DNA of 37,670 nucleotides. It comes from Thiomicrorhabdus sp. (GTDB lineage: Bacteria > Pseudomonadota > Gammaproteobacteria > Thiomicrospirales > Thiomicrospiraceae). The stretch is from positions 1-37,670 of the forward strand of contig JALSJT010000204.1 in NCBI GenBank assembly GCA_026989175.1, given 5' to 3'. Under the pieces are notes generated by a model. The model had not been told where the DNA came from and ran no database searches. It was given only the letters and a program-made list of their open reading frames with translations. A program made the position numbers and the translations under genes. Numbering within the stretch: position 1 is the stretch's first letter; each line of letters starts with the position of its first letter. Shown piece by piece: positions 3,366-29,866 of this stretch.

Positions 3366-4421
3366 TTACTTGCTACTCTCTGGGGGAATTTGTGTTTCAT
3401 CAATCACACAGTTTCGACCGCTGTTTTTGGCTTGATAGAGTGCTTTGTCTGTACGCTCAATAAAGGACTTTGCATCTTCATAGTCTCCTCGGTAGGTCGC
3501 GACACCAAATGAGGCGGTAATGGTTTTAAGTGGCTCGGATGAGTTTTTCCGTTTTAAGTGGGCGGACTGAATCGCCTCTCTAATTTGATGCGCACGTTCG
3601 ACGGCTTCGTCTAAACTGGAGTTTGCGAGTAAAATAGCAAATTCTTCCCCCCCATAGCGACAGATGGTTTCATTGTCCGTTTTGTCTTTTTGCATAATAC
3701 TGGCAAAGTAACGCAGTACACTGTCACCGACCAAATGACCATAGGTGTCATTGAATAACTTAAAGTGATCAATATCACAAAGAATCATCGCGAGGCTTTC
3801 AGGGGCATTTTCCGCTTCCAGCATGAGCTCTTCAATGGCATTATTAAACGCTTTTCGATTGCCTATTTGGGTTAGTTCATCTTTTAAGGCTTCCGCTTGT
3901 GCTTCTTGTAACTGTTTACGAAGCTCTTTCACCGCTTCAGCATTGTGAATCATCTCATTCTGAATATTGAGAGAGCCCTCTTTAATTGAAGAGGCGGCGC
4001 TGATTACGGAGTCTGTGATGCGTTTAATATCTTCACTGTTTAAGTCTGGATTGGAGAGTTCACTGGAGCACTCATCAAGCTGCTGGGTGTGACTTTCTAA
4101 TTTGTCACTCCATGCATTCATTTTTTTGACCATCGCATCAATTAAGCGTCGAAAGGCTCGGTCAAACTCAGAAGTGCTATCTTCTTTTTCTGCTAGGTAG
4201 GTGTCATAAAGTCGTTTACCAACTCGATCATTGTAGCCAAAAGGGTCATTTAAAATTGCATCCATCTCTTGGCGTAGGGCAGGGATGTTCCCTTTAACAT
4301 ATTGATACCAAACATAGTAATTTAGCGGGCTGGGGTTGATGTTTTGCTCTTTAAAGGTCTCAACGAGCCTGTCAAAAATACGAATGGCTTTTTGGGGGGC
4401 ATCTTTTACATCAACGATCAT
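3366..4421 (-). CDS. GGDEF-domain diguanylate cyclase
   Basis: RYGGEEFAILL motif with DELTQIGNRKAFN. The ORF track extends to 4655, but the homologous-looking protein begins at MIVDVKDAPQKAIRIFDRL (ATG at 4421). Confidence 0.88.
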   Translation of the reverse strand: MIVDVKDAPQKAIRIFDRLVETFKEQNINPSPLNYYVWYQYVKGNIPALRQEMDAILNDPFGYNDRVGKRLYDTYLAEKEDSTSEFDRAFRRLIDAMVKKMNAWSDKLESHTQQLDECSSELSNPDLNSEDIKRITDSVISAASSIKEGSLNIQNEMIHNAEAVKELRKQLQEAQAEALKDELTQIGNRKAFNNAIEELMLEAENAPESLAMILCDIDHFKLFNDTYGHLVGDSVLRYFASIMQKDKTDNETICRYGGEEFAILLANSSLDEAVERAHQIREAIQSAHLKRKNSSEPLKTITASFGVATYRGDYEDAKSFIERTDKALYQAKNSGRNCVIDETQIPPESSK

Positions 4422-4637
4422 AATGAGTTTAGACCTTTTTTTGAACAGAGAAAATTTCTGAGTGTGTTCGACAATTCTAACATGAATAAAATAGGGATAG
4501 TTAATGTTGAAAACAGCTCTATTTAAAAAAGGGGTAAGGGGTCTATGTTTCTTTATTTCGAGTGGTATAAATAAGGAGAACAGAGTATAGTTTGGCGATA
4601 GAAAAAAGATGTTAAACAATCGATATAGGAGTAGAAA

Positions 4638-4874
4638 ATGCTGAATGCAAGTCAATTAGACGAGATGGCGAGAAAGATAGCGGGCGTGATTCCACAAGGG
4701 GTGGGTGGGATTCCTTCCGAGGTTCAAGCACAAGTTAAAGTCATTTTAGCACGCACATTTGAAAAAATGGATCTAGTGAGTCGAGAGGAGTTTGATATTC
4801 AGGTTGCGGTGTTGGCGAAAACACGACAAAAGCTTGAAAAACTTGAGAAGACGGTGGCAGATCTTGAAAAATAA
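4638..4874 (+). CDS. ubiK: Ubiquinone biosynthesis accessory factor UbiK (BMFP/YqiC family)
   Basis: 78 aa with N-terminal amphipathic region and C-terminal coiled coil (REEFDIQVAVLAKTRQKLEKLEKTVADLE). Confidence 0.85.
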   Translation: MLNASQLDEMARKIAGVIPQGVGGIPSEVQAQVKVILARTFEKMDLVSREEFDIQVAVLAKTRQKLEKLEKTVADLEK

Positions 4875-9253: not shown

Positions 9254-10687
9254 TTATGACTCTCTTAAGGCTTGGTCTTTGGCTTTGATTATCGGCTTTA
9301 ACAGGTAGTCTAGTAACGTATGTTTACCCACAATAATATCAACACTTGCGGTCATTCCTGGGAGTAGGTATAAAGGGTTGTTTGCGGTGCCTAAATGGTT
9401 CTCATTGGTCTTAATTCGAGCAATATAGAAGCTGTTTCCCTCTTCATCGGTAATCGTATCGGCAGAAATTTGTGTGACAACCCCGTCTAATCCACCATAG
9501 ATTGAGAAGTCATAGGCGGTAAATTTAACCTTTGCCGTGAGTCCGTTGTAAATAAAGCCGATGTCGGCGGGTAGGATTTTGGTTTCAAGGACGAGAGTGT
9601 CATTTTCGGGAACAATTTCTATAATATCGCTTCCTGGTTGAATAACCCCACCAATGGTATTTACAAAAAGTTGCTTGATGGTTCCACTAACGGGAGACCT
9701 TATTTCGGTTCGAGTGACTCGGTCGGCCAATGCCGTTTTGGACTTTTCAAGTTGACTGATCTCTGCCAGTACTTGGTTGAGCTCTTCATGCGCTTCATTC
9801 ATAAAGTTCTCTTTCGCTTCAATTCGTTTTGAACGGAACTCTGTAATCACCGATTGCAGTTTTGGGATTGAAAATTCAACCGATTTTAATTTGGAATAGG
9901 CTTCGTTCTCTTCGCGTTGAAGTTTGAGTAGGTCTACGTGTGAAGCAATCCCTTGATTGACCAAGGGTTCCGTTAAATCAATTTCTTGTTGTAACAGCTG
10001 AAGTGTACGCTTGAGTTGAACCAGTTGATTTTGAGCTTCACGTAACTCAAGCTTTTTTTGCTCAATTTGTTCAACAATAATCGTATCATTGGTTTTGTGT
10101 TGTCGAGCTCTTGCTTTGTACAAATGATGTTCACGGTCATATAAGGATTGTATTCGACTGTCTTGTGAAATTTCATGCGGTTTAAACGGTTTATTAAAGG
10201 CTTCAGCTTTTAAGCGTTGGGCACGTGCCGTAAGCTGTGCTTCTTTGACTTCACTTTCATCATAGGAGCTTGAAAACTGTATATTGTTGAGCTTCATTAG
10301 TATTTGGTTTTTTGTAACATGGTCTCCGGTTCGTACAAAAATCTCTTCAACAATCCCGCCCTCTAAGTTTTGAATGACTTGAATTTTGGTGGAGGGGACA
10401 ACCTTGCCTTCGCCTCGTACAATTTTATCTAACTCGGCGTAGTTTGCCCAAGTGATGAGCCATATTACTACAAATAAAATAACCCATACCAGCCACTGTG
10501 ATCGTGCGGTGGGCTTTTCAAGTGCAGCCTGACTCAGGCTAGACATGAATTCAATATCTTGTGCGATAATTTTCTCTTTTTTCTGTTTTGCGTGCTCTTG
10601 TTTTTTTAGTAATGCATCCGCCTCCTCTTGTGTCGAGGCGTCTTTAGAGGTTTTGTGAGAAGTAGGCAGATTATCTGAGTTTGTCAT
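9254..10687 (-). CDS. lapC: HlyD-family T1SS periplasmic adaptor (LapC-like)
   Basis: 477 aa; VVPSTKIQVIQNLEGGIVEEIFVRTGDHVTKNQ; RSPVSGTIKQLFVNTIGGVIQPG. ATG overlaps the stop of the upstream ABC transporter gene. Confidence 0.92.
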   Translation of the reverse strand: MTNSDNLPTSHKTSKDASTQEEADALLKKQEHAKQKKEKIIAQDIEFMSSLSQAALEKPTARSQWLVWVILFVVIWLITWANYAELDKIVRGEGKVVPSTKIQVIQNLEGGIVEEIFVRTGDHVTKNQILMKLNNIQFSSSYDESEVKEAQLTARAQRLKAEAFNKPFKPHEISQDSRIQSLYDREHHLYKARARQHKTNDTIIVEQIEQKKLELREAQNQLVQLKRTLQLLQQEIDLTEPLVNQGIASHVDLLKLQREENEAYSKLKSVEFSIPKLQSVITEFRSKRIEAKENFMNEAHEELNQVLAEISQLEKSKTALADRVTRTEIRSPVSGTIKQLFVNTIGGVIQPGSDIIEIVPENDTLVLETKILPADIGFIYNGLTAKVKFTAYDFSIYGGLDGVVTQISADTITDEEGNSFYIARIKTNENHLGTANNPLYLLPGMTASVDIIVGKHTLLDYLLKPIIKAKDQALRES

Positions 10688-12918
10688 GAGGTTTTCTTTT
10701 TACTAATTTTGCCCGTTTTAAGGGCGTCTAATACGGATTGCTTCGGGCCATCCGCAATCATTTTTCCGTGATCCATCACCATGAGTCGATCGACGAGTTG
10801 TAATAAGCTCATTTTATGGGTTACTAAGATTGTGGTGCTACTTAGTGTCCCTTTTTTCAATCGGTCAATCATGATTTGCTCGGTTTTGGCATCCATCGCA
10901 TTGGTGGGTTCATCAAATAGATAGATGGGCGAGTCGAGGAGAAGTGCTCGTGCGACGGCAATACTTTGTCGCTGCCCACCTGATAATGATTTTCCACCTT
11001 CATCAACTTTTAAGCTGTAACCTGAGGGGTGTTGTTTGATAAAGTCATCTACACCAGCTAATTTGGCCGCTTTGAGGATTGCACTGTCGTCAATATAGGG
11101 GGCTTTATAGGAGATATTATCACGTACGTCACCGCTAAAGAGGGTAACGTCTTGTGGTACGTAGTTAATATTACGCCTTAACTCCGCAGGATCGAGTTGT
11201 GAGATATCAATACCATCAATAAGAATTGACCCTTCATCAATTCGATAGAACCCTAAGATAAGTTTTTCAATCGTCGATTTACCGGAGCCAATTCGGCCAA
11301 TAATGGCGACTTTTTCGCCGGGTTCAATAATGAAACTTACTTGATGAAGTGCTTGCTTCGTTTCACCAGGGTAGGTAAAGCTTACGTTATTAAACTCAAT
11401 GCGCCCTTCAATATGAGGGTGTTGAATAAATCGCTTATTGGCCGGTCTTTCAATCTCTTTTAGCATGAGTTCATTTAACGAGTCGAGCGCTGTTTTCGTT
11501 TGAGAGTAGGAGGTGGTTAGATTGGCAAACTGCCCCATAGGGCCGATGGCTCTTTGACTGAGCATAACCGTGGCAATGAGTCCGCCCATGGTTAAATTGC
11601 CTTCGGTAATAAAGTAAACACCAGTAAGGACAATGAGAACGGTGCTGATTTGTTGCATAAATCCAGTCATTCTTCCAATGGAACTTTGTAACATTTTAGA
11701 GCGCAGACTGGCTTGAGCAATCTCTCCGATGGCTTGTTCCCACTTCCATTGAGAGCGTGCTTCAACCCCAAGTGATTTGATGGTTTCCATTGCGGTAAGC
11801 GTTTCAATCAGTACCGCATTTTTTTGACTATTAGCTTGATAGGTTGCTTCAATACTACGTTGAATAGGGCCTTTTAATAAAAAGCTATAGAGCAAAATAA
11901 TGAGGATAATGGAGAGGGGAACTAAAACAATGAGACCAGCAATATAAAAGATAACCAGTAAAAATATAATCGTAAAGGGAAGGTCTACCAGTGATGCAAT
12001 CGTACCAGAGGTAAAGAAATTTCGAATGCTATCAAACTCTTTAAGGGTGTTGGCAAATGCCCCAATAGAGCCATTGCGATTGGCCATGGTTAAGCCTAGG
12101 GTTTGCTCAAAAATTTTACCAGACATGATGACATCGCTTTTTTTACCAGCAACTTCCAGAAAATAGGAGCGTAAATATTTGAGTAAAATATCAAATAGAT
12201 AAATAACACTGACACCGATAGCGAGTACCCATAACGATTCGATGGCATTATTTGGTACGATGCGGTCATAGACGTTCATGACAAAAAGAGGGGTGGCTAA
12301 AACAAAAATATTGATGACAATGGAGGCGATTAATACATCTCGATAAATGGATTTTGATGCCCATAGGGTGCTCCAAAACCAGTGACCATCTTGAAATCCA
12401 AGTAAGTTTTCGGTTTTTTTCTCATGATGCATTTTGACGGTGAGGTAGATGGCATAGCCTGTATAGTCGGCTTCCAGTTTTGCAATGTCAATCGTTAGTG
12501 AGCCCTCTTTTGCTTCGGGTAAAATAATTTTAGCAGTACCCGCCTCGATATCGAGCTGTTCTAAAATACAGGCTTGGTTTTTTTTAAGCACAAGAATACA
12601 AGGAAGGACTAAATTAGAAATACTCTGTAGAGGCCTCTCTTTAAAGCTGGCGATTAAGTTGGCACGCTCGGCTGCGCGGGCAAAAATTTTAGGAGGAATG
12701 CAACCATCTTCAATAGGAAGCCCAGCAATTAAGGCCTCTTTCGAAAACGGTTGGCGGTTTAATTTGGTATAGATAACTAAACAGTCCAATAGAGGACTGT
12801 GAAGTTCCGTGTGCAAGGGCGCTTGATGATCTTTATCGGTCTCTTTTTCGAAATTATCTGAGGTTAATTTTGCTTCGGTATCGGATTGAGATACGGTGTT
12901 TTTTGCTATTGATTCCAT
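10684..12918 (-). CDS. lapB: T1SS ABC permease/ATPase (LapB/LssB-like, N-terminal C39-like domain)
   Basis: 744 aa; IIGRIGSGKSTIEKL Walker A; LSGGQRQSIAVARALLLDSPIYLFDEPT; N-terminal LDCLVIYTKLNRQPFSKEALIAGLPI region. Confidence 0.93.
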   Translation of the reverse strand: MESIAKNTVSQSDTEAKLTSDNFEKETDKDHQAPLHTELHSPLLDCLVIYTKLNRQPFSKEALIAGLPIEDGCIPPKIFARAAERANLIASFKERPLQSISNLVLPCILVLKKNQACILEQLDIEAGTAKIILPEAKEGSLTIDIAKLEADYTGYAIYLTVKMHHEKKTENLLGFQDGHWFWSTLWASKSIYRDVLIASIVINIFVLATPLFVMNVYDRIVPNNAIESLWVLAIGVSVIYLFDILLKYLRSYFLEVAGKKSDVIMSGKIFEQTLGLTMANRNGSIGAFANTLKEFDSIRNFFTSGTIASLVDLPFTIIFLLVIFYIAGLIVLVPLSIILIILLYSFLLKGPIQRSIEATYQANSQKNAVLIETLTAMETIKSLGVEARSQWKWEQAIGEIAQASLRSKMLQSSIGRMTGFMQQISTVLIVLTGVYFITEGNLTMGGLIATVMLSQRAIGPMGQFANLTTSYSQTKTALDSLNELMLKEIERPANKRFIQHPHIEGRIEFNNVSFTYPGETKQALHQVSFIIEPGEKVAIIGRIGSGKSTIEKLILGFYRIDEGSILIDGIDISQLDPAELRRNINYVPQDVTLFSGDVRDNISYKAPYIDDSAILKAAKLAGVDDFIKQHPSGYSLKVDEGGKSLSGGQRQSIAVARALLLDSPIYLFDEPTNAMDAKTEQIMIDRLKKGTLSSTTILVTHKMSLLQLVDRLMVMDHGKMIADGPKQSVLDALKTGKISKKKTS

Positions 12919-12947: not shown

Positions 12948-14900
12948 TTAACGCTTTTCTTTGTGTATTAAGGCCGAAGGAGCGCCATAATAGTACCCTT
13001 GGAAGTACTCGGTACCTAAATCAGCAAAGGCTTTCTGTTGCTCTTGATTTTCAATGGCAACGGCAATGATATTAATATCTAAACTTTTGGCAAGTTCGCA
13101 TAAACTCGCAACATAATTTTTGGTTTGTTCATCGATGCAGATGGTTTTGCTAAAAGAGGGGTCTAATTTAATGTAATTGGGTCGTATTGTTTGAAGATAG
13201 CTTATATTGGTTAGTGCACTCCCAAAATGGTCTATTCCAAAGCCAACCCCGAGTTGTTTGAACTCTTCAATAAGAGGCCAAGCGGTTCCTTTTTCTTCAA
13301 GAATGAGTCTTTCGGGCAGCTCAAATGATAAGCTTGAGAGGTGTGCTTTTGACGTTGTTAATGTTGTGATGAGCCACTTTTTAAAGAGGGGGTTCTCTAA
13401 CACGGACTTGGATAGATTTACGGCAACCGGGTGGTTAGAAGGGTGCTGTAAAAATTGTAAGACTTTCTGAATAACCAGTTTGTCAATTTCTTCAATTCGA
13501 TTAAGTTGTTCAATCGCAGGCATAAAGTAGCCAGCAGAGCGAACGATACCATCAAAGTCGGTTAAGCGAATTAAGACTTCTTGATCGTGAATTTCACGAT
13601 TATGGTCATAAGAATTTTGTTGAAAAAGTAAAAAGCGTTCTTCAAAAAAGGCTTGATCCAATTTTTTATCCCACGCAAGGTGAGAGGGACGACTACTTTT
13701 TTCCGTCTCATAGAAATAGACTTGATTTTCTCCTAATTGATTCGCCTCACTCATTGCAAAATCTAAGTTTGCTAAGAGTGTGCTACGTGTTTGACCTGGT
13801 TCATAGCAAATATAGGCGATGGATAGACTGGTTTTTGATGCTTCAATAGAGAGCTGCTTTAGGATTTTTGAGAGGCGCTTGGTAATAATTTCTGCTTGCG
13901 GTTGAACTTGTTTGGGGTCTGAGTTGGGTAAGACAGCAACAAGCTCCGTGCCATTGAGGCGAGCAAAAAGGCTGTTGCGATGGTACAGGTTTGACTGTAC
14001 TTCTTCAGCCAGTGACTTGATGAGTTTATCCCCGGTAATATAACCATATTGTTCATTGAGAATTTTAAGGTTTTGTATACGCACAAGGCAAATGGTACCT
14101 GGGATGGCGTCCTCTTTAGGGTCTAATAAGCTATCGAGCAACATCTCAAAGTGGCGGCGATTATGAAGCTCAGTCACCGGATCTTGAAAAGCCATTTTTT
14201 GTAGCTTTTCGGCCGTATTAGCATCCCGTTCAAAAATCATTTTTAGCTTAGAAACCATGGCATTCATTGCCGCAACGACTTCACGAAACTCCGTCGTTTT
14301 AGGCAGAGGTTCCTGAATTAAGTACTCTTTTTTGACAATGGCCTTTGCTTGTTCTTCCATTTTTTTGAGTGGTGCAAGCATGACTTTAAGAGCATAAATG
14401 ATGATGAGTGTTGAGACGATTGCTGCCAATAAGAACCAAGTTAATAGGGTTACGGTGGAGTTCCATAGTTCAATGTATGCATAGCCTGTATGACTGGTTA
14501 CGCTAAGCGTACCAACGGGAATCCAACCCGACTGAACCAGTGCTTCTGCGGTAGGGGCAGAGAGCTCTATGGTATGGATAAAAAATTCAGGAACATCTTC
14601 CATAGTTTCTGTGTTTTCTCTCTGGTAAAGGAGCTCTCCTTCCGTATTTTTTAATGTAATGTTTTTGTAATAGCCTCGATCAAATACCGCATTAATCATG
14701 GTTTCCATGCTGGATAGGTCATTTGGGTCTTGAAGTGAGCTAAGAGAGAGTCCAAGAGAGGTTGCAGTATCTTGTGCGTGAGAGTGAAGTTGTTCTTGCA
14801 GAAAGTTTTTAGTGTTGCTCAAATTTAAGCTAAAGGTACCGGCTAATAGAATCATTAGTAGTGAAGCGATAAAAAGTACCATTTGTTTGTTTAAACTCAT
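12948..14900 (-). CDS. lapD: LapD-like inner-membrane c-di-GMP receptor (LapD/MoxY N-terminal domain, HAMP, degenerate GGDEF and EAL)
   Basis: 650 aa; TM-periplasmic-TM-HAMP; degenerate ARLNGTELVAVLP at the GGDEF position and QEVLIRL at the EAL position; neighbours LapG and T1SS. Confidence 0.9.
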   Translation of the reverse strand: MSLNKQMVLFIASLLMILLAGTFSLNLSNTKNFLQEQLHSHAQDTATSLGLSLSSLQDPNDLSSMETMINAVFDRGYYKNITLKNTEGELLYQRENTETMEDVPEFFIHTIELSAPTAEALVQSGWIPVGTLSVTSHTGYAYIELWNSTVTLLTWFLLAAIVSTLIIIYALKVMLAPLKKMEEQAKAIVKKEYLIQEPLPKTTEFREVVAAMNAMVSKLKMIFERDANTAEKLQKMAFQDPVTELHNRRHFEMLLDSLLDPKEDAIPGTICLVRIQNLKILNEQYGYITGDKLIKSLAEEVQSNLYHRNSLFARLNGTELVAVLPNSDPKQVQPQAEIITKRLSKILKQLSIEASKTSLSIAYICYEPGQTRSTLLANLDFAMSEANQLGENQVYFYETEKSSRPSHLAWDKKLDQAFFEERFLLFQQNSYDHNREIHDQEVLIRLTDFDGIVRSAGYFMPAIEQLNRIEEIDKLVIQKVLQFLQHPSNHPVAVNLSKSVLENPLFKKWLITTLTTSKAHLSSLSFELPERLILEEKGTAWPLIEEFKQLGVGFGIDHFGSALTNISYLQTIRPNYIKLDPSFSKTICIDEQTKNYVASLCELAKSLDINIIAVAIENQEQQKAFADLGTEYFQGYYYGAPSALIHKEKR

Positions 14901-14970: not shown

Positions 14971-15672
14971 TTACTGGATTTTAAGTCGTTCTAATAGGTT
15001 ATTCCAAGCTTTTAGCTTCTTGGTTCCACCGGAGACTGAGCGTCCTTTTCCTCGCTGTTTTGCTAGCCAGAGTCCATCTCCGTTAAAGCTGTAGACAGGT
15101 ACTAGATCATTACGTTGGGTCGCTTTTAAAATACGTTTGTTAATGTTATCTAAAACGAGAGGGATAGATGTTGGTGTTTTAAAATAGGTTAAGACCATGT
15201 GTGCTTGGTTTAGGCGAATGGCCTTAACGTAAGTAAGGTATAGCTTTTTTTCTGAGACCCCAAGTGCTTTTAGGGTGAAGTATTTGGCAATGGTATAGTC
15301 TTCACAGTCACCAGCATCCGTTGAGAGCATCTCAACAGGGGTTGCCCAATAGTCTTTTTGCTTCCAATGAATAATATCGTCAATAAAACGTACTTCATTA
15401 AAAAAATCATTTACATTTTTAAGCTTGGTTGCTTCGGGTTGATTGATGTTGTCATCCACAAGCTGTTGCCAGGCTTGAAGACGCCGACCGGCAAATAAAC
15501 CATATGTTTGTATGGCATTTTGAATCTCTTGTTGTGATACGACTTGAGGAGCGGTACTCGCCGTCGACCAAATGACTCCAGAGGTGAGCAGTGTCAAACA
15601 AAAAATAAATGCCTTTAATCCATGCCATTTTTTCATAGCGTTAAGCTTATCGAGGCGCAGAGATAAAGGCAA
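14971..15672 (-). CDS. lapG: LapG-like periplasmic transglutaminase-like cysteine protease (BTLCP)
   Basis: 233 aa; STDAGDCEDYTIAKYFTL (Cys), QAHMVLTYF (His), LVLDNINKRIL (Asp) match the LapG catalytic triad context. Confidence 0.92.
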   Translation of the reverse strand: MPLSLRLDKLNAMKKWHGLKAFIFCLTLLTSGVIWSTASTAPQVVSQQEIQNAIQTYGLFAGRRLQAWQQLVDDNINQPEATKLKNVNDFFNEVRFIDDIIHWKQKDYWATPVEMLSTDAGDCEDYTIAKYFTLKALGVSEKKLYLTYVKAIRLNQAHMVLTYFKTPTSIPLVLDNINKRILKATQRNDLVPVYSFNGDGLWLAKQRGKGRSVSGGTKKLKAWNNLLERLKIQ

Positions 15673-15732: not shown

Positions 15733-16656
15733 TTATTTTGGAATCATTTCAGCGGGCAAGGTTAAGGTTGCATCATCCGGAAGTTCATTGAGTTTAATCA
15801 CTTGTAGTTCAATGCGGCGGTTTTTTTGGCGACCCTCTTCAGTTGAGTTATCGGCAATTGGGTACTGTTCGCCGTAGCCATTAATATAAACTTTAGGTGC
15901 AATATGTCCGAGCTCTTGAATAATAAACGCTTTTGCACTATTGGCTCTGCGCCAAGAGAGGCGAAGATTTAAGTCGTCGGATCCAACATAGTCCGTATGC
16001 CCTGTAATGAGAACAACGTCATCCTCTTTTAAGTTACTTAGCATGGCGGCATCTTTTCTTAAGATTGCTTTTTGGCTCTCTTGAATATCATGCGAATAGG
16101 TTTCAAAAATAATATTTGTTAATACGTATTCATGGGGTTCGCAACCGTGGCGATTTACCGTAGTATTGAGAGGTGTATCTAAGCACTCATCAATATTGTC
16201 ATTGACGTTGTCATGGTCGATATCTATGATTTCACAGCCATGCGCATCTACGGTTACCCCTTTTGGTGTGCCAGGGCACTTATCTTTACTATCAGGGACA
16301 CCGTCTTTATCTTCATCATTCTCACAGCCAAACCGATTTACCATGACGCCGGGCGCCGTATTTAAGCATTGATCAATACGATCGACAACGCCATCTTTGT
16401 CGTTATCCACTTCACAGCCATATTGATCAACTGCGGCACCAAAAAGGGTATTTAGACAGTGGTCGTATTGGTCTTTTACGCCATCTTGGTCTAAGTCTTT
16501 ATAGTAGGTTGTCGTTATTTTTGCATCATAGCTGGTTAACGCTTTAATCGCATGGGTTACAGGCTTCTCTTGGGAAGTCTCTTCTGCGTAAGAAGGGAGA
16601 GCGAGGCAGGTTGTTAATAAGCTGCTGGTAACGAGGGCTATTTTAATTTTTTTCAT
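15733..16656 (-). CDS. OmpA-family protein with thrombospondin type-3-like calcium-binding repeats
   Basis: Repeats such as DLDQDGVKDQYDHCLNT...YGCEVDNDKDGVVDRIDQCLNT...FGCENDEDKDGVPDSKDKCPGT; C-terminal OmpA domain ITGHTDYVGSDDLNLRLSWRRANSAKAFI...NRRIEL. Confidence 0.92.
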   Translation of the reverse strand: MKKIKIALVTSSLLTTCLALPSYAEETSQEKPVTHAIKALTSYDAKITTTYYKDLDQDGVKDQYDHCLNTLFGAAVDQYGCEVDNDKDGVVDRIDQCLNTAPGVMVNRFGCENDEDKDGVPDSKDKCPGTPKGVTVDAHGCEIIDIDHDNVNDNIDECLDTPLNTTVNRHGCEPHEYVLTNIIFETYSHDIQESQKAILRKDAAMLSNLKEDDVVLITGHTDYVGSDDLNLRLSWRRANSAKAFIIQELGHIAPKVYINGYGEQYPIADNSTEEGRQKNRRIELQVIKLNELPDDATLTLPAEMIPK

Positions 16657-16719
16657 AAACGGCTCTAAGGTTTTTAAATAGATGTTTTTTCTGAAGGTTT
16701 TTACTTTTTTTATTTTATA

Positions 16720-16880
16720 GAGACCTTTGCACGAGGGGGACGCGAGAGAAAAAAGAGCTAAAATTTGACTGATTGAGGCGGGAATCGTAGGGAATAGCTA
16801 GCTATTCGCAAGATTTTCAACAAAAATCAGGCATATTTTTTAGCCTTTTTTATCCGTGTATTCTCTCGTGCAAAGGTCTC
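16720..16880. mobile_element. MITE-like palindromic element, IS5-group-like termini
   Basis: Perfect 16-bp TIRs GAGACCTTTGCACGAG (16720-16735) and CTCGTGCAAAGGTCTC (16865-16880); TTATA direct repeats at 16715-16719 and 16881-16885; centred on palindrome GAATAGCTAGCTATTC (16792-16807). Confidence 0.85.
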
Positions 16881-17031
16881 TTATAATTTTATAATAATTT
16901 AGGTAAAAGACTGTTTTAGCCTATTTTAATGGACATAATCATACACGTTTTTTTATTTTTGGTAAGGAATACTACTCAATTTATTTAGATAAAGTTGATT
17001 TTCGAGTTATATTTTTTACTTTTTAATGGAA

Positions 17032-18255
17032 TTAGAAGGTTTGTTTGAGTGCGTTTAAAAGTTGCTGATCTGTTAACCGTACAGGGTTTCCGAGCATACT
17101 GCCGCTACGGCAGTTTTCAATAACCTTGTCTAGGTTGCTTGATGTTAGACCATATTGGCTTAACCCATTGGGCGCATAGTGTTGAGTGAGTTTATGCAGG
17201 GTTTGTACCAGGTTTTGTAAGTTCACATCAGAATTTTGGGTAGTGATTGTGTTGAATAGTTGACTAATTTGTCGATACTTTTCTAAGCACTGCGTGGCAT
17301 CAGCGGTATCAATTGACTGCAAGGTTTCAATATTAAGTTGGGTGATTGGCGCAAGTAGTTTTGCACAAACAATACCATGTGGGGCTTTAAAGAACGCGCC
17401 AATCGGCCCAGCCAAACCATGTACCGCACCTAGCCCCGCATTGGCTAAGGTAATGCCGGATAGCGAGGCCGCCAGCATTAAGTTGCTATACCCTTCCTGT
17501 TGAATCGCTTCATTCGCATGGTTAATTTTTTCAAACGCCCCTTGAAAGAGGGTCATGCCTTGCCAAGCCAATGCATCCGTGATCGGGTTGCTTTTCAGTG
17601 TGGTGTACGACTCTAACAACTGAGTAAAGGCATCCATTCCGGTGGCATAAAGTATCTCTTTCGGGCAGGTTTTGAGCAGTTCGGGATCGAGCCAAACGTG
17701 TTTTGCCAGTAATTTATCGTCTCGAAACGATTTTTTAAACTGGCCGAGCTTGGATAACACGGCGTTTTTGGTGGTTTCACTGCCTGTTCCAGCGGTGGTT
17801 GGCACGGCAATAAATGGGCAGGTGTTTACGTTAAATGGCTTGCCGAGTCCAACACCCTCTAAATAATCCATCACGGAGGTTTGGCTTGGAATTAATCCTG
17901 CAATGGCTTTCGCCGCATCGAGTACACTGCCACCTCCCAATCCAACCACGGCTTGGGTGTCGGTATCGCACTGCTGTACGATCTCATCGACTTGATCAGG
18001 AGAGGGTTCACCTGAAATGATAAAGTGTTGCAGCGTAATATTGTGTGCTTGCAACTGGTTGAGTAGTGTGTGACCAAAGTAGCCTTCTATTGCTAAGGTT
18101 TTTCCCGTGATAGCGACCAGTTTTTTAGGACAATTTTGAATTAAAAAATCGGTCAGTTGTTGGCGAATGCCCCAGCCAAAATGTAGGGCAGGCATGGGGG
18201 CAAATTCAAACGGGGCGATAGAGGTTGATGCGATTGACATATTTATAGGTCTCAT
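17032..18255 (-). CDS. Iron-containing alcohol dehydrogenase family protein
   Basis: 407 aa; AVVGLGGGSVLDAAKAIAGL; VPTTAGTGSETTKNAV; GAVHGLAGPIGAFFKAPHGIVCA. The start may be the internal ATG (MSIAST). Confidence 0.92.
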   Translation of the reverse strand: MRPINMSIASTSIAPFEFAPMPALHFGWGIRQQLTDFLIQNCPKKLVAITGKTLAIEGYFGHTLLNQLQAHNITLQHFIISGEPSPDQVDEIVQQCDTDTQAVVGLGGGSVLDAAKAIAGLIPSQTSVMDYLEGVGLGKPFNVNTCPFIAVPTTAGTGSETTKNAVLSKLGQFKKSFRDDKLLAKHVWLDPELLKTCPKEILYATGMDAFTQLLESYTTLKSNPITDALAWQGMTLFQGAFEKINHANEAIQQEGYSNLMLAASLSGITLANAGLGAVHGLAGPIGAFFKAPHGIVCAKLLAPITQLNIETLQSIDTADATQCLEKYRQISQLFNTITTQNSDVNLQNLVQTLHKLTQHYAPNGLSQYGLTSSNLDKVIENCRSGSMLGNPVRLTDQQLLNALKQTF

Positions 18256-23871: not shown

Positions 23872-26646
23872 TTAAAAATCTGTCCACTCATCATCCGAGC
23901 CTGCACTCGGTTGTGCGGGGGCAGGGGTTTGTAGTGCCGCAGGTTTAGGCGCTGTTTTAACATAGGTTTTTATGGGGTTAGCTTGCGTAACCGCCATGGT
24001 TTTTTTAGCTGATGTTTTTGCTACACTAGCCGGGTTTCTTGTGGGGGTACTTATTGCTGGAGCTGGTCCTGAGCCAGTAACTTCTTGTTCTAGTTGGGTG
24101 ATGAGTTCAATCACCTCGTTGGATTGTTCAATCAATTTTTCAATGGCTTCATTGGCTTCATCGATTTTATTGTCGTGTTTTAGATCGACGATTTGACCAA
24201 TTTGTGCATGGAGTTCATTGTGAATATTGATCAGCTTTTGAAAGGTGCTTGAGCTGGCGAATTGCTGCCCTTCGCTATTTATCCATTTGCCCAGCGCACA
24301 AAGTGTTGGGTCTTTTGCAGAGGTTGGATCAAAGTCAATGTCAATGTCATTAACATAAGCACGCGCCTTGACTCGCCACTGTTTATGACCGCGTCGTGCA
24401 CTTTCAAAATCAAAGTCATCATGATTTTGAAGATTTATGTTATTCGATTCATTAATGGTGAATTTTGCTACATTTCGTTGCATGTGCTTGGAGATCTCTC
24501 CCAGCTCTTCTGAGGTGGCCGCCGTCTCCTCGACTAGTGCAGCATTTTGTTGTACCGCCGTATCAATGTTGGTGATGGAGGAGTTGACTAGGCTCACCCC
24601 TTCACTTTGTTCATTACTGGAGGCAGCAATCTCTTCAATGATCTGGTTTACATTAGAGATGGACTCGACAATATCATTTAAGACATCACCAGAGCCTTTC
24701 ACATGAACCGTACCTTCGGAGACTTTTTTAACGGTATCTTCAATTAGGTTACGAATATCTTTAGCGGCCTCAGAGGATTTTCCGGCTAAATTACGAACCT
24801 CGCCTGCCACAACTGCAAAACCACGACCATGTTCACCCGCACGTGCCGCTTCTACCGCTGCGTTGAGAGCTAATAGGTTGGTTTGGAAGGCGATGCTGTC
24901 AATTAAGCCGATAATGTCATTAATTTTTTGACTCGACGCATTGATCTGCTCCATCGCATCAATGGCACGGTGCATGACCTCAACCCCTGAGCTGGCTTGT
25001 TGTGCGGTGGTTTGCGTGACTTTCGACGCTTCTCGAGAGTTATCGGCATTTTGTTTCACTGCGGCGGTCATCTGCTCCATGCTGGAGGCGGTCTCTTCTA
25101 GTGAGGCCGCTTGATCTTGAGTTCGACTATTGAGGTCAATACTGCCTTGATAAATTTGCTCCGCTCCGCCGTTGACAGCATTGGTCGCCGCTTTGGTTTG
25201 TGAAATCATTGAGTTTAAACTGTCTACCGCGACATTTAAACTGTCTTGCAGTACGGCAAACAGCCCAGAGTAGTGCCCTTCAATGTGACTGGTCAAGTTC
25301 CCTTCTGAGAGAGAGATGGCAACTTTAACGGTCTCATTAATGGGTTTTTCAATGGCGATAAGCAGGTCATTGATCGATTGGCTGAGCTCTTTTGCGACAC
25401 CGTCAACACGGCTTAAGTCAATACGAGCATCGAGTTTACCTCGTTTAGCGGATTGAATGGTGCTATTCACCTCTTGCAGTAACTGCACCTCAGCGGTTTT
25501 ATCTCGCCACTCTGCAATGGTAGCGGTACGAATGCCTGCGCGGTTAAAGACAGGAATCGCATAGATCTCTAAATGGGTGTCACCGAGCGTAATTTTTCCT
25601 AGATAGGGTTCCGTTAGGTTCTCAAGAATTGTTCGCTGATGCGAGGGCGTTTTGTGAAATACATCAATATTTTTCCCAATTAAGGTGGAGGCATTAAAGT
25701 TAGGTAAGACGGCTTGAAGAATCTGTTCTTTGTCTTTTAAGAAGGCAACCATACCATGGTTCATATAGTTGATATTAAGGTTCGCATTGGTAATCATGAT
25801 ATTGCTTGACACTTGGTCCATCGCCGTTTGTAGGAGGTGTGCTTGGTCAAGTTGGTAAGCGGACTCCTCTATTTGTTCGCGTGCCGCTAAGTAGACCGAG
25901 CGAATTGCGGTTTTACGTTGTCCAAGAGGGGTTGAGGGGTCAAACCACTCATTGCTTAAGTGCTCCCGAGATGCGATGGTTTTGAGATCTTTTTGAGTGA
26001 GTGCATGCGATTTATTGAGGTATAGACCGTATAAAAAAGGAGGAACAAGCCCAGCAAAAAGGATTGCTAACATGGTTGGGATGCTGTAACCATCAATAAT
26101 GGCATAGGTTAACATTGGAACCAGATAGATTAAAAATACCAGCAGGGGGAGTTGGTATTGCGGCGAAAGCCGAGCTAAAACATTAAGTTTGCGCCAGTTA
26201 GGACCATAAAAAATACGCCCAGATTGAATTTTCGCCTTGCCCGCTTTAATGTCTTGATAGGCTTTGATCGCGGCTTGTTTTTCAGCTTCCGTTGCAGGGG
26301 TACGGATCGACATATAGCCACTAACTTTACCGTTGGTGTAGATGGGGGTCGCGTTGGCTCTTACCCAGTAAAAACCGCCATTTGCACGGCGATTTTTGAC
26401 AATTTGTGACCAAGTGTTACCAGCTTTAAGGGTGGCCCATAGATCGGCAAAAACGGCTTCAGGTACATCGGGGTGGCGAATAATATTATGCGGTTGACCA
26501 ATCAGCTGATCTCGGCTAAAGCCACTGGCGGCTTCAAAGGCATCATTGCACTCAATAATATTTCCAGTCAAGTCTGTTTTAGAGACTAAGGTTAGTCCGT
26601 CTGGAACAATGTACTCTTCATTCGTAATGGGCTGATTATTGCGCAT
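23872..26646 (-). CDS. Aer-like PAS methyl-accepting chemotaxis protein with C-terminal CZB domain
   Basis: N-terminal PAS FSRDQLIGQPHNIIRHPDVPEAVFADLW; signalling tip DIIGLIDSIAFQTNLLALNAAVEAARAGEHGRGFAVVAGEVRNLA; CZB-like HKQWRVKARAY...DPTLCALGKWINS...H; ends in DDEWTDF. Confidence 0.93.
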   Translation of the reverse strand: MRNNQPITNEEYIVPDGLTLVSKTDLTGNIIECNDAFEAASGFSRDQLIGQPHNIIRHPDVPEAVFADLWATLKAGNTWSQIVKNRRANGGFYWVRANATPIYTNGKVSGYMSIRTPATEAEKQAAIKAYQDIKAGKAKIQSGRIFYGPNWRKLNVLARLSPQYQLPLLVFLIYLVPMLTYAIIDGYSIPTMLAILFAGLVPPFLYGLYLNKSHALTQKDLKTIASREHLSNEWFDPSTPLGQRKTAIRSVYLAAREQIEESAYQLDQAHLLQTAMDQVSSNIMITNANLNINYMNHGMVAFLKDKEQILQAVLPNFNASTLIGKNIDVFHKTPSHQRTILENLTEPYLGKITLGDTHLEIYAIPVFNRAGIRTATIAEWRDKTAEVQLLQEVNSTIQSAKRGKLDARIDLSRVDGVAKELSQSINDLLIAIEKPINETVKVAISLSEGNLTSHIEGHYSGLFAVLQDSLNVAVDSLNSMISQTKAATNAVNGGAEQIYQGSIDLNSRTQDQAASLEETASSMEQMTAAVKQNADNSREASKVTQTTAQQASSGVEVMHRAIDAMEQINASSQKINDIIGLIDSIAFQTNLLALNAAVEAARAGEHGRGFAVVAGEVRNLAGKSSEAAKDIRNLIEDTVKKVSEGTVHVKGSGDVLNDIVESISNVNQIIEEIAASSNEQSEGVSLVNSSITNIDTAVQQNAALVEETAATSEELGEISKHMQRNVAKFTINESNNINLQNHDDFDFESARRGHKQWRVKARAYVNDIDIDFDPTSAKDPTLCALGKWINSEGQQFASSSTFQKLINIHNELHAQIGQIVDLKHDNKIDEANEAIEKLIEQSNEVIELITQLEQEVTGSGPAPAISTPTRNPASVAKTSAKKTMAVTQANPIKTYVKTAPKPAALQTPAPAQPSAGSDDEWTDF

Positions 26647-26905
26647 GCCTTAAACTCCTAACTGAATGTAAATGGTTATTGCCATTCTATGGTAAAGCTA
26701 GGTTGGATTCTAGTGTAAAAGTAATAAACCTTTTGATTTGTCTATACAATGAGTAGATACACCTAGGTAGCTTGGTGCGAAAGGAGGGGCTTAATCTCTT
26801 AGGCGGGTAAAAATACTAAGTATTGTGTGTAAGTTTCATTGATATTTAAAACGTGCTCAGGTAGAGTGAGTGGTTTGATTGTTTTTATTATTTTAGGCGA
26901 TTACT

Positions 26906-29866
26906 TTGGGTAAAAATACGCTCTCATTCGGTACCCCTTTTTCACAAACCTCAACCTTAAAACGTGGTCTCTCTTTTGGGGTTTTCACTCTGGTGTTCTG
27001 GTTGTTCATGGTAGGGCTTACGGTGTTTGTCTACTTCTTTTCAGACTACTTGATTAAACAGCACTATGAAAGAGTTAAAGCCGGTGTGACGATTTCAGCA
27101 AAAGGACTTGCGAATGTCATTGATGAACGGATTGATCAACAGCGTTTAATGGTAAAAGCGCTGGCGATTCATAATGAAGAGCAAATTTATGAACTCGCAG
27201 CAGGTGGCGGCTATCCATTTGATCTTTTTAAGTTATCAGAGCACATTAAGGATCTTTTGCCCAATGCAACGCAGTTTGCGATTTTAGATGGGCAGGGAAA
27301 TTTGGTGGCTGGCAGTGAGCGATTACATATTGGGGGTAGTTGTCACACAGATATACAACATAGTATGCATTCCTTCCCTAGTGAGGTCTCTTTTTTAGGG
27401 CCTCATAGCTCGCCTGATGGCACAATTCATTATGACGTGGCTTATCCGCTGAAAAATAACGCTGGAGACTTTGAACAGCGTGCGGTACTTTTTTTAAGTT
27501 TTAATTTTAATGATCTTCATGAGAAAATTGTTCACTTTAATACCGATACTTTTGAATTTGTTTTAGTGAAGTCAGAAAAGAACCCTATGGTCATCGTGTC
27601 AGATAAAGGTATTGCTGTCAGTGAATACGGAAGCAAGCTGGAGCCATCGGTTTTGGAGAGTGCTTTGGTTCAAACCCCTGTTTTAAGTGGTCAGTGGCTA
27701 TTACTTGGGCTGCCAAAGCCTGGTGTATTTGCAAATTATGTTCAGCGTGTTTGTTGGACAGCCTCTCTCTTTTTAGGCGCCTTTTTTATTTTTATGGTCT
27801 TGCTTTTACAGTATCTTCGTAAAATTGAGCGGGCACGGCAGCGACTTGAGAGTAATTCGGTTCAGGATGCGCTGTTTAATACGGGGCCAACCGTCCTGTT
27901 TCAGAAAAAAGCCGATAGTAATATGGCGGTGGAGTATGTCTCGCCAAATGTACATGCTCTGCTGGGCTGTAGTGTACAAGAGGTGTTAAACAAAGGCTCT
28001 TTTGTGGAATTGATTATGCTGGAAGATGTGGCCACCGTGCGAATGGCGGTGTTAAATGCCTGTACACACCATGAGCAGGAGGTCAGTTTAGAGTACCGTG
28101 TTAAGTATGCTCAGTATCAAGGCTATCACTGGGTGTATGACCTAACGCGTATTGTGTATGACGCACAGGGAAAAGCCTCCCATCTACAAAGTTATGTCAC
28201 CTCCATTCATGCACAAAAAATGGCAGAGCAGCGCGCCAGTCATCTGATCGAAAGTGCGCCTGATGCGTTGGCGGTAACAGATCGCTATGGTATCGTTCTA
28301 AGGGTGAATCAGGCATTTGAAAAAATGTTTGGTTATGAGCGTGAAGATTTGGTTGGGCTCTCTTTAGATTTGTGCATTTATGAGAACACGCAAGACGATT
28401 GGCACCAACGCATTAAGCAACTGTTGGATGATGAAGGGCTGGATTCGGTATTATTGGGTACCGATGCAACAATCTCTGCGATTACACGAGAAGGAAAAAC
28501 CTTTACGGTTGAGGTGGGTTTTAGTCGAGTGAATACGTTGGACGATATTCAGTTGGTGCACACCATTCGCGATGTCTCGATACAAGTTCAAGCGCAACAT
28601 CAAATGCAGGTCGCAAAGGAGCGTGCGGAAGCCTTGGCAAAAGCTCGAAGTCGCTTTGTTGCCACCATGAGCCATGAAATTAGAACCCCATTAAACGGGG
28701 TGCTGGGGATGTCTAACTTATTAAAAAACACATCATTAAGTTCACAGCAATCAATGTATTTGGATGCGATTGAGCAGAGTGGTCAAGCATTGTTAAAGGT
28801 CGTCAATAATATTTTAGACTTTGCCAAGTTAGATGAAGGGGGGGTGAATTTAGAGGCGAAAGCGTTTGATTTGAATGCAGTGGTTCGAGATGCCTTACAA
28901 ATTCTGAATTTGCAAGCGATTGAAAGTGAGGTGGAGGTCTCTTTTGAAAGTCGTTTGCCCAGCCAACTTCAGTTGATTGGCGATGCAGGGCGTGTTCAGC
29001 AGGTCTTGTTGAACTTATTAAGCAATGCCATTAAATTTTCACCACAAGGTCGAGTGGAGGTGATAGTTACCCTTCGAGCGGTTGAGCAATCTCCTTCAGG
29101 AGTGGTGAGGGTATTGGTTGAAATAAAAGATACCGGTATCGGTATTTCAGAAGACTCACTGGAACAACTGTTCGATTCTTTTACTCAAGCAGATGACTCT
29201 ACGACACGTAAATTTGGTGGCACAGGGTTGGGTTTGACGATCTCAAAACAGTTGGTGGAACTTATGGGGGGTACAATTGGGGTGGTCTCCGAAGAGAACG
29301 TCGGAAGTCTTTTTTGGGTTGAGATACCCTTTCAAACGGCTTTAGCTCAGCGATGTTTAGAGAATCTTGAAGTGCATGAAAAAAATGAACCTGTCCGGCT
29401 ACCGGACTTATTGAAAGAGACTAAAAAAACAGAGGGGTCTACACCAGTTTTAGAGAGGCAAGCGTCTCCCATTTTAGCTGGAAAAACCATCTTGTTAATT
29501 GAAGATAATGAGACAAATCAGGAGATTGTGTTAGCGTTTGTGCAGCGTTTAGGTGCACGAGTTGATATTGCTAAGAATGGACTGGAGGGGTTGTCTTTTT
29601 GGCGCATGGGGGCTAAACAATATGATCTGATTTTAATGGATTGTCAGATGCCGGTTATGGATGGCTATGAGGCGACGATTTTGATTCGTAAAGAGGAGAT
29701 GTTATCACAAACAACGGATGCTATTCCAATTGTCGCTTTAACCGCAAATGCTATGCCAGAAGACCGAGCGCGCTGTTTTTCGGTTGGCATGAACGATTAC
29801 ATTACTAAGCCGATAGATATTGAGCTGTTTAATCAAACCTTGATTAAGTGGATTATTTCAGCCTAG
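26906..29866 (+). CDS. Hybrid sensor histidine kinase (periplasmic sensor, two PAS domains, HisKA, HATPase, REC)
   Basis: MSHEIRTPLNGVLGMSN; GTGLGLTISKQLVELMGGTI; ILLIEDNETNQEIV...LILMDCQMPVMDGYEAT. Predicted start is TTG, so it is uncertain. Confidence 0.92.
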   Translation: MGKNTLSFGTPFSQTSTLKRGLSFGVFTLVFWLFMVGLTVFVYFFSDYLIKQHYERVKAGVTISAKGLANVIDERIDQQRLMVKALAIHNEEQIYELAAGGGYPFDLFKLSEHIKDLLPNATQFAILDGQGNLVAGSERLHIGGSCHTDIQHSMHSFPSEVSFLGPHSSPDGTIHYDVAYPLKNNAGDFEQRAVLFLSFNFNDLHEKIVHFNTDTFEFVLVKSEKNPMVIVSDKGIAVSEYGSKLEPSVLESALVQTPVLSGQWLLLGLPKPGVFANYVQRVCWTASLFLGAFFIFMVLLLQYLRKIERARQRLESNSVQDALFNTGPTVLFQKKADSNMAVEYVSPNVHALLGCSVQEVLNKGSFVELIMLEDVATVRMAVLNACTHHEQEVSLEYRVKYAQYQGYHWVYDLTRIVYDAQGKASHLQSYVTSIHAQKMAEQRASHLIESAPDALAVTDRYGIVLRVNQAFEKMFGYEREDLVGLSLDLCIYENTQDDWHQRIKQLLDDEGLDSVLLGTDATISAITREGKTFTVEVGFSRVNTLDDIQLVHTIRDVSIQVQAQHQMQVAKERAEALAKARSRFVATMSHEIRTPLNGVLGMSNLLKNTSLSSQQSMYLDAIEQSGQALLKVVNNILDFAKLDEGGVNLEAKAFDLNAVVRDALQILNLQAIESEVEVSFESRLPSQLQLIGDAGRVQQVLLNLLSNAIKFSPQGRVEVIVTLRAVEQSPSGVVRVLVEIKDTGIGISEDSLEQLFDSFTQADDSTTRKFGGTGLGLTISKQLVELMGGTIGVVSEENVGSLFWVEIPFQTALAQRCLENLEVHEKNEPVRLPDLLKETKKTEGSTPVLERQASPILAGKTILLIEDNETNQEIVLAFVQRLGARVDIAKNGLEGLSFWRMGAKQYDLILMDCQMPVMDGYEATILIRKEEMLSQTTDAIPIVALTANAMPEDRARCFSVGMNDYITKPIDIELFNQTLIKWIISA

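Follow-up and report, generated by a model that had tools for sequence, protein, structure and literature searches.

This locus raises the question of what separates an iron-containing alcohol dehydrogenase gene from ompA/TSP3, both on the minus strand, and whether it alters the expression of the Lap-type genes that follow. The window, meaning the whole stretch of 37,670 nucleotides from Thiomicrorhabdus sp. that was analysed, holds here a 161-bp palindromic element, which the first-pass annotation described as MITE-like with ends of the IS5-group type, and placed in the promoter region of the Lap-type block, where it could rewire or insulate the adhesin-export genes. The features are collected in Table 1. 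The genes past ompA are of the LapG, LapD, ABC, HlyD, LuxR and outer-membrane-efflux types, and the Lap-type block is flanked by genes for a diguanylate cyclase, a PAS/HAMP chemoreceptor with a CZB domain and a hybrid histidine kinase (window 3366-4655 and 23872-29866).

Table 1. Features of the element and of the neighbouring genes (window coordinates).
Feature	Coordinates	Strand	Domains or basis
MITE copy, whole-length imperfect hairpin, no ORF, 161 bp	16720-16880	+	sequence, repeat finder, copy comparison
Left terminal inverted repeat (TIR) GAGACCTTTGCACGAG	16720-16735	+	sequence, repeat finder, genome count
Right TIR, same 16 bp on minus strand, CTCGTGCAAAGGTCTC	16865-16880	-	
5-bp target-site duplication (TSD) TTATA, left copy	16715-16719	no strand	
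5-bp TSD TTATA, right copy	16881-16885	no strand	
Central perfect palindrome GAATAGCTAGCTATTC, hairpin tip	16792-16807	no strand	
Conserved promoter-like block upstream of ompA, includes TTACCA-16-TATGAT (16965-16938)	16936-16981	-	six-species alignment, promoter scan
Iron-containing alcohol dehydrogenase, upstream tandem neighbour, stop 151 bp from element	17032-18255	-	
OmpA-family protein (thrombospondin type 3 repeat), first gene on the downstream side of the element	15733-16656	-	PF00691, PF02412
LapG-type cysteine proteinase	14971-15672	-	Peptidase_C93
LapD-type c-di-GMP receptor	12948-14900	-	LapD_MoxY_N, GGDEF, EAL
Type I export ABC transporter	10684-12918	-	
HlyD-type adaptor	9254-10687	-	

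The earlier description of the element itself was borne out by the sequence and the repeat finder, including the size, the perfect TIRs (16 of 16 bp matching), the duplication, the imperfect palindrome and the lack of an ORF (none of 100 aa within the 161 bp). The central palindrome was also present, its centre lying half a base off the element midpoint. Between the element and the ompA/TSP3 ATG at 16656 there are 63 nt, in agreement with the about 64 bp given before, and, as noted there, the scan of the window's 19 main proteins turned up no transposase. The element folds nearly end to end, with an RNA fold of -78.5 kcal/mol compared with -37.3 for shuffles (z = -11.3), and as single-stranded DNA the fold gave z = -8.5. 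No Rfam family scored above the gathering score. The element was not assigned to the Correia or ERIC type, its TIR GAGACCTTTGCACGAG apparently differing from the characteristic TIRs of those repeats, and a REP/RAYT repeat, with no target duplication, a GTAG-type foot and a RAYT partner, does not fit the 5-bp TSDs and the long TIRs.

In the genome to which the window belongs, a 1.98-Mb draft of 212 contigs that is 93% complete, the TIR with at most 2 mismatches was counted at 112 + 115 = 227 ends, while the reversed-pattern control gave 0, pointing to about 110 copies or, by our estimate, close to 0.9% of the genome. Whole-element comparison gave 40 scored copies with 88-100% identity. Nearly all of the 57 paired copies were 158-161 bp long and 46 had exact 5-bp duplications; the target sites were AT-rich, with Y at -6 in 44 of these 46 copies and R at +6 in 41. 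A partner copy of at least 99% identity was observed for 27 of 58 copies, indicating that movement of the family was recent, and one MITE was nested inside another (L062, at G000:C97). According to a simple ORF scan, few copies overlap a gene, and where a copy lies between tandem genes it is mostly found shortly past a stop codon.

Length variants were also observed, among them longer derivatives of 196-220 bp. Larger forms of 184-220 bp (L126:2834-3017, L126:8276-8479, L042:1501-1720 and L044:1501-1695) carry an extra GC-richer segment inside one arm, with ends and duplications intact, and remnants of 24 bp (L033, position 1516, minus strand, with a CCAAG duplication) and 48 bp (L079:1099-1146) look like products of a deletion of the palindrome body. 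A TIR-to-TIR interval of 808 bp at C182, considered as a candidate IS, was actually two MITEs flanking a glutaredoxin-like gene.

Among 76 relatives scanned, the TIR was abundant only within the same bacterial family, and the number of ends in species of one genus ranged from 0 to 471. Carriers found in the genome-wide scan were Thiomicrorhabdus sp. Milos-T2, T. chilensis, MAGs of Thiomicrorhabdus and Thiomicrospira, and MAGs labelled, as deposited, Thiotrichaceae and Cocleimonas, whose MITE bodies share about 67-73% identity with the window copy. A stray misbinned contig is unlikely for the latter, since these genomes hold 54-117 ends each. Exact 5-bp TSDs were found at 41 of 59 copies in Milos-T2 (G015) and 14 of 24 in another relative (G018). 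Body identity across the MITE family falls to about 65-70%, and the SZUA-128 and NORP131 MAGs have the same TIR with dissimilar bodies. Elements of 79-87 bp with the same or nearly the same TIRs were seen in other genera or species of the bacterial family (L092, L102, L109, L089) and are apparently either centre-deleted forms or separate small MITEs. No relatives of the element were found in the plasmid collection, the phage collection or the viral contigs. A literature search found no MITE report for this group of sulfur-oxidising bacteria, and the family appears to be undescribed.

At the locus itself, the orthologous intergenic regions of five sister species (L166-L170; OmpA identity 72-85%) were without the element, so that empty sites exist as would be expected for an insertion, and conservation of the element at this position across distant species was not observed. 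Short length, TIRs, TSDs of constant length, dispersed copies and empty sites were thus all found, and the sequence at 16720-16880 is a MITE, as the first reading had held.

The assignment of the ends to the IS5 group also held. Full-length IS5-family elements of 1.24-1.25 kb with the same TIR are present in G007, G029 (1244-1254 bp in these two, reached via a DDE_Tnp_1_2 search), G089 and others (reached via protein search), so neither other copies nor a matching IS is lacking. Their transposase has 326-328 aa and reaches 261.7 bits with the NCBIfam model transpos_IS5_4, for which the cut-off is 140. The G089 copies L137 and L160 have the exact 5-bp TSDs AATAA and AAGAT, and clear TSDs were not seen at L111, L112, L114, L138 and L152. 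Similarity between the MITE and these IS is confined to the TIR, with no internal sequence left from a parent IS, and the family is therefore IS5-mobilised in type and not a demonstrated internal-deletion product. We propose that an IS5-family DDE transposase with the same GAGACCTTTGCAC ends would act in trans on the gene-less MITE and would make the 5-bp duplications at AT-rich Y-N5-R sites.

A transposase of the IS5_4 type was not found in the window's own draft genome, nor in Milos-T2, a nearly complete genome that has the most TIR ends (471), indicating that MITE load is not tied to the presence of the transposase. The 22 DDE_Tnp_1 copies of Milos-T2 were rejected as partners because their ends are unlike those of the MITE, and searches of the own genome with PF01609, PF13586 and PF13359 gave only a weak transposase remnant without convincing TIRs. 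Loss of the transposase after a burst, or its absence from the draft, is possible. Short ORFs near a contig end (L080, G000:C2) resemble, by our reading, transposase remnants of two other IS families. That the element is a host regulatory repeat of the terminator or REP-like kind that never transposed is hardly credible: the strong hairpin and the intergenic positions would suit such a repeat, but 5-bp TSDs, empty sites, nested copies and IS with the same ends would not, and the scan for intrinsic-terminator-like sites found none in either direction.

Comparable ends are known from described elements. The ISNme1 TIR is GAGACCTTTGCAAAA and the BrickBuilt TIR GAGACCTTTGCA, the latter motif being common to the MITE, ISNme1 and other IS5-family IS (PMC4596501), and IS5-family transposases occur in the relatives of the Thiomicrospira group; the MITE, by contrast, lacks an ORF and has only the TIR in common with the IS found here. 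The BrickBuilt MITE of Porphyromonas gingivalis likewise has IS5-family-type ends and is non-autonomous without a transposase remnant, but its core is a 23-nt minisatellite, it is present in about 19 copies and its TSDs are irregular (PMC4596501), whereas the family described here consists of 159-161 bp hairpins with about 110 copies and a regular 5-bp TSD. The Correia elements of Neisseria are of similar size, also form hairpins and exceed 100 copies, and one lies just downstream of the mtrCDE promoter, in the leader, as is proposed here, where RNase III cleaves at the TIRs (PMC10969869); their sequence is unrelated, and promoters and IHF sites are known in them. QMITE1 and QMITE2 of Coxiella burnetii are gammaproteobacterial MITEs as well, making up about 0.9% of the genome with hairpin transcripts, but they have other TIRs, some copies encode peptides, and QMITE2 has direct repeats of 7-9 bp (PMC5896051).

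To characterise the hairpin, pairing was analysed in 22 elements from different genomes with 50 consensus pairs, and two-sided changes that preserve pairing were observed at 28 of the 50. Paired cells amounted to 95.5%, compared with 85.5% in shuffles (0 of 500) and 38-50% in slid versions, exact figures that lean towards structure, given the relatedness of the 22 rows and the use of this same alignment to derive the structure. Among 55 copies of the own genome, 60 two-sided changes retained a Watson-Crick pair and 0 broke it, and in the central palindrome a G-C pair was swapped to C-G in 37 of the 55. Compensatory change indicates that the hairpin itself was preserved while the family spread, the possible reasons being considered below.

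The main rival for compensation as such is arm-to-arm correction during replication (quasipalindrome template switching), which would keep the palindrome without structural selection. It agrees with the frequency of compensated changes in the own-genome copies, with the joint change of the arms even within the TIR (C-G to G-C in three species) and with the 24- and 48-bp remnants, which show that the palindrome readily suffers internal deletions; however, it predicts no strand asymmetry, and an excess of G.U over A.C was found. We regard it as a possible explanation, though a somewhat doubtful one.

As for this asymmetry, where only one side of a Watson-Crick pair had changed, the plus-orientation reading gave G.U:A.C cells of 68:15, 37:6 and 34:7 in three separately expanded sets from three species. 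Counted as distinct changes, 55 made G.U and 30 made A.C at paired sites (p = 0.009), compared with 34 G.U-type and 47 A.C-type changes at other sites, and the consensus folds of all three sets were 12-15 kcal/mol more stable on the plus strand than on the minus strand. In the own copies the raw tally came out flat at 180:162, being dominated by fixed consensus mismatches; the bias is present only in changes from Watson-Crick consensus pairs. The asymmetry hints at a constraint at the RNA level, and is suggestive but not decisive. A structured RNA encoded in the plus orientation, with the copies forming a transcribed repeat under RNA-level selection, would account for these three observations and would have a parallel in QMITE1 of Coxiella, which yields small RNAs (PMC5896051), but we consider it unlikely: the singletons by themselves fall short of significance (27:16, p = 0.13), the copies are of common ancestry, the 22 divergent elements gave only 100:60, orientation to tandem flanking genes was balanced (about 14 same and 15 opposite by our count), and Rfam offered no family above threshold. 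A shade less likely still is the joint reading of a mobile RNA hairpin, in which a plus-orientation transcript functional for the element or its host would keep the pairing, G.U pairs included, across several genera as the sequence turns over, and the family would spread in genomes that have ceased to contain a recognisable transposase.

With respect to the adjacent operon, the placement in the promoter region was not supported. Six species, namely that of the window and the five element-free sisters, share a strongly conserved promoter-like block (AATTGAGTAGTATTCCTTACCAAAAATAAAAAAACGTGTATGATTA on the minus strand) ahead of ompA, and this block lies upstream of the element. The promoter scan independently picked the TTACCA-16-TATGAT site inside this block as the sole minus-strand sigma-70-like match, with transcription predicted to start at about 16931, and the 5' part of the block (GAGTAGTATTCC), upstream of the -35-like hexamer, may be an operator. 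With the block in this position, the element falls within the predicted 5' leader of ompA/TSP3, which by coordinate arithmetic from a start near 16931 would be about 275 nt long in the mRNA instead of the about 109 nt expected if the element were absent. The insertion leaves the conserved AGAG..TTTATG start region of ompA intact.

The -10-like TATAAAAT on the minus strand, said to be created at the junction of element and TSD, consists of the TSD copy TATAA and the flank AAT; it is already present in the reconstructed empty site and thus predates the insertion. It lies directly downstream of the element and would fit a rewired or insulated Lap block, in which the element blocks the upstream promoter and transcription of ompA comes from a promoter beside the element, either new or already present. 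This we consider quite improbable, because the motif was there beforehand and lacks a good -35 at a distance of 16-18 nt, because the promoter scan found no sigma-70-like site beside the element, its only minus-strand match being the upstream block, and because no intrinsic-terminator-like site occurs in either direction.

Our preferred explanation is instead that of a bystander MITE. The insertion came after the split from the sister species, at a point downstream of the promoter-like block and upstream of the ompA/TSP3 ribosome-binding region, and the ompA mRNA leader would then carry a long hairpin. In all likelihood the insertion is tolerated and affects mRNA stability or processing modestly if at all, as with the Correia elements in Neisseria leaders that are cut by RNase III; an effect on expression of the Lap block is possible. 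As a whole, the explanation of a high-copy MITE, mobilised in trans by an IS5-family transposase, with its hairpin kept and inserted in a leader, is in our judgement highly probable.

The element is a real, recent insertion of a high-copy MITE, and this kind of element is already known. What is added for sulfur-oxidising bacteria is an apparently undescribed MITE family with up to several hundred ends per genome. The family provides many natural replicates for the question of why the full-length hairpin of some MITEs is maintained through compensatory changes, as well as for that of how MITEs reach high copy number where no matching transposase is found. The locus offers a clean case for testing the effect of a hairpin inserted into an adhesion-related operon's leader.
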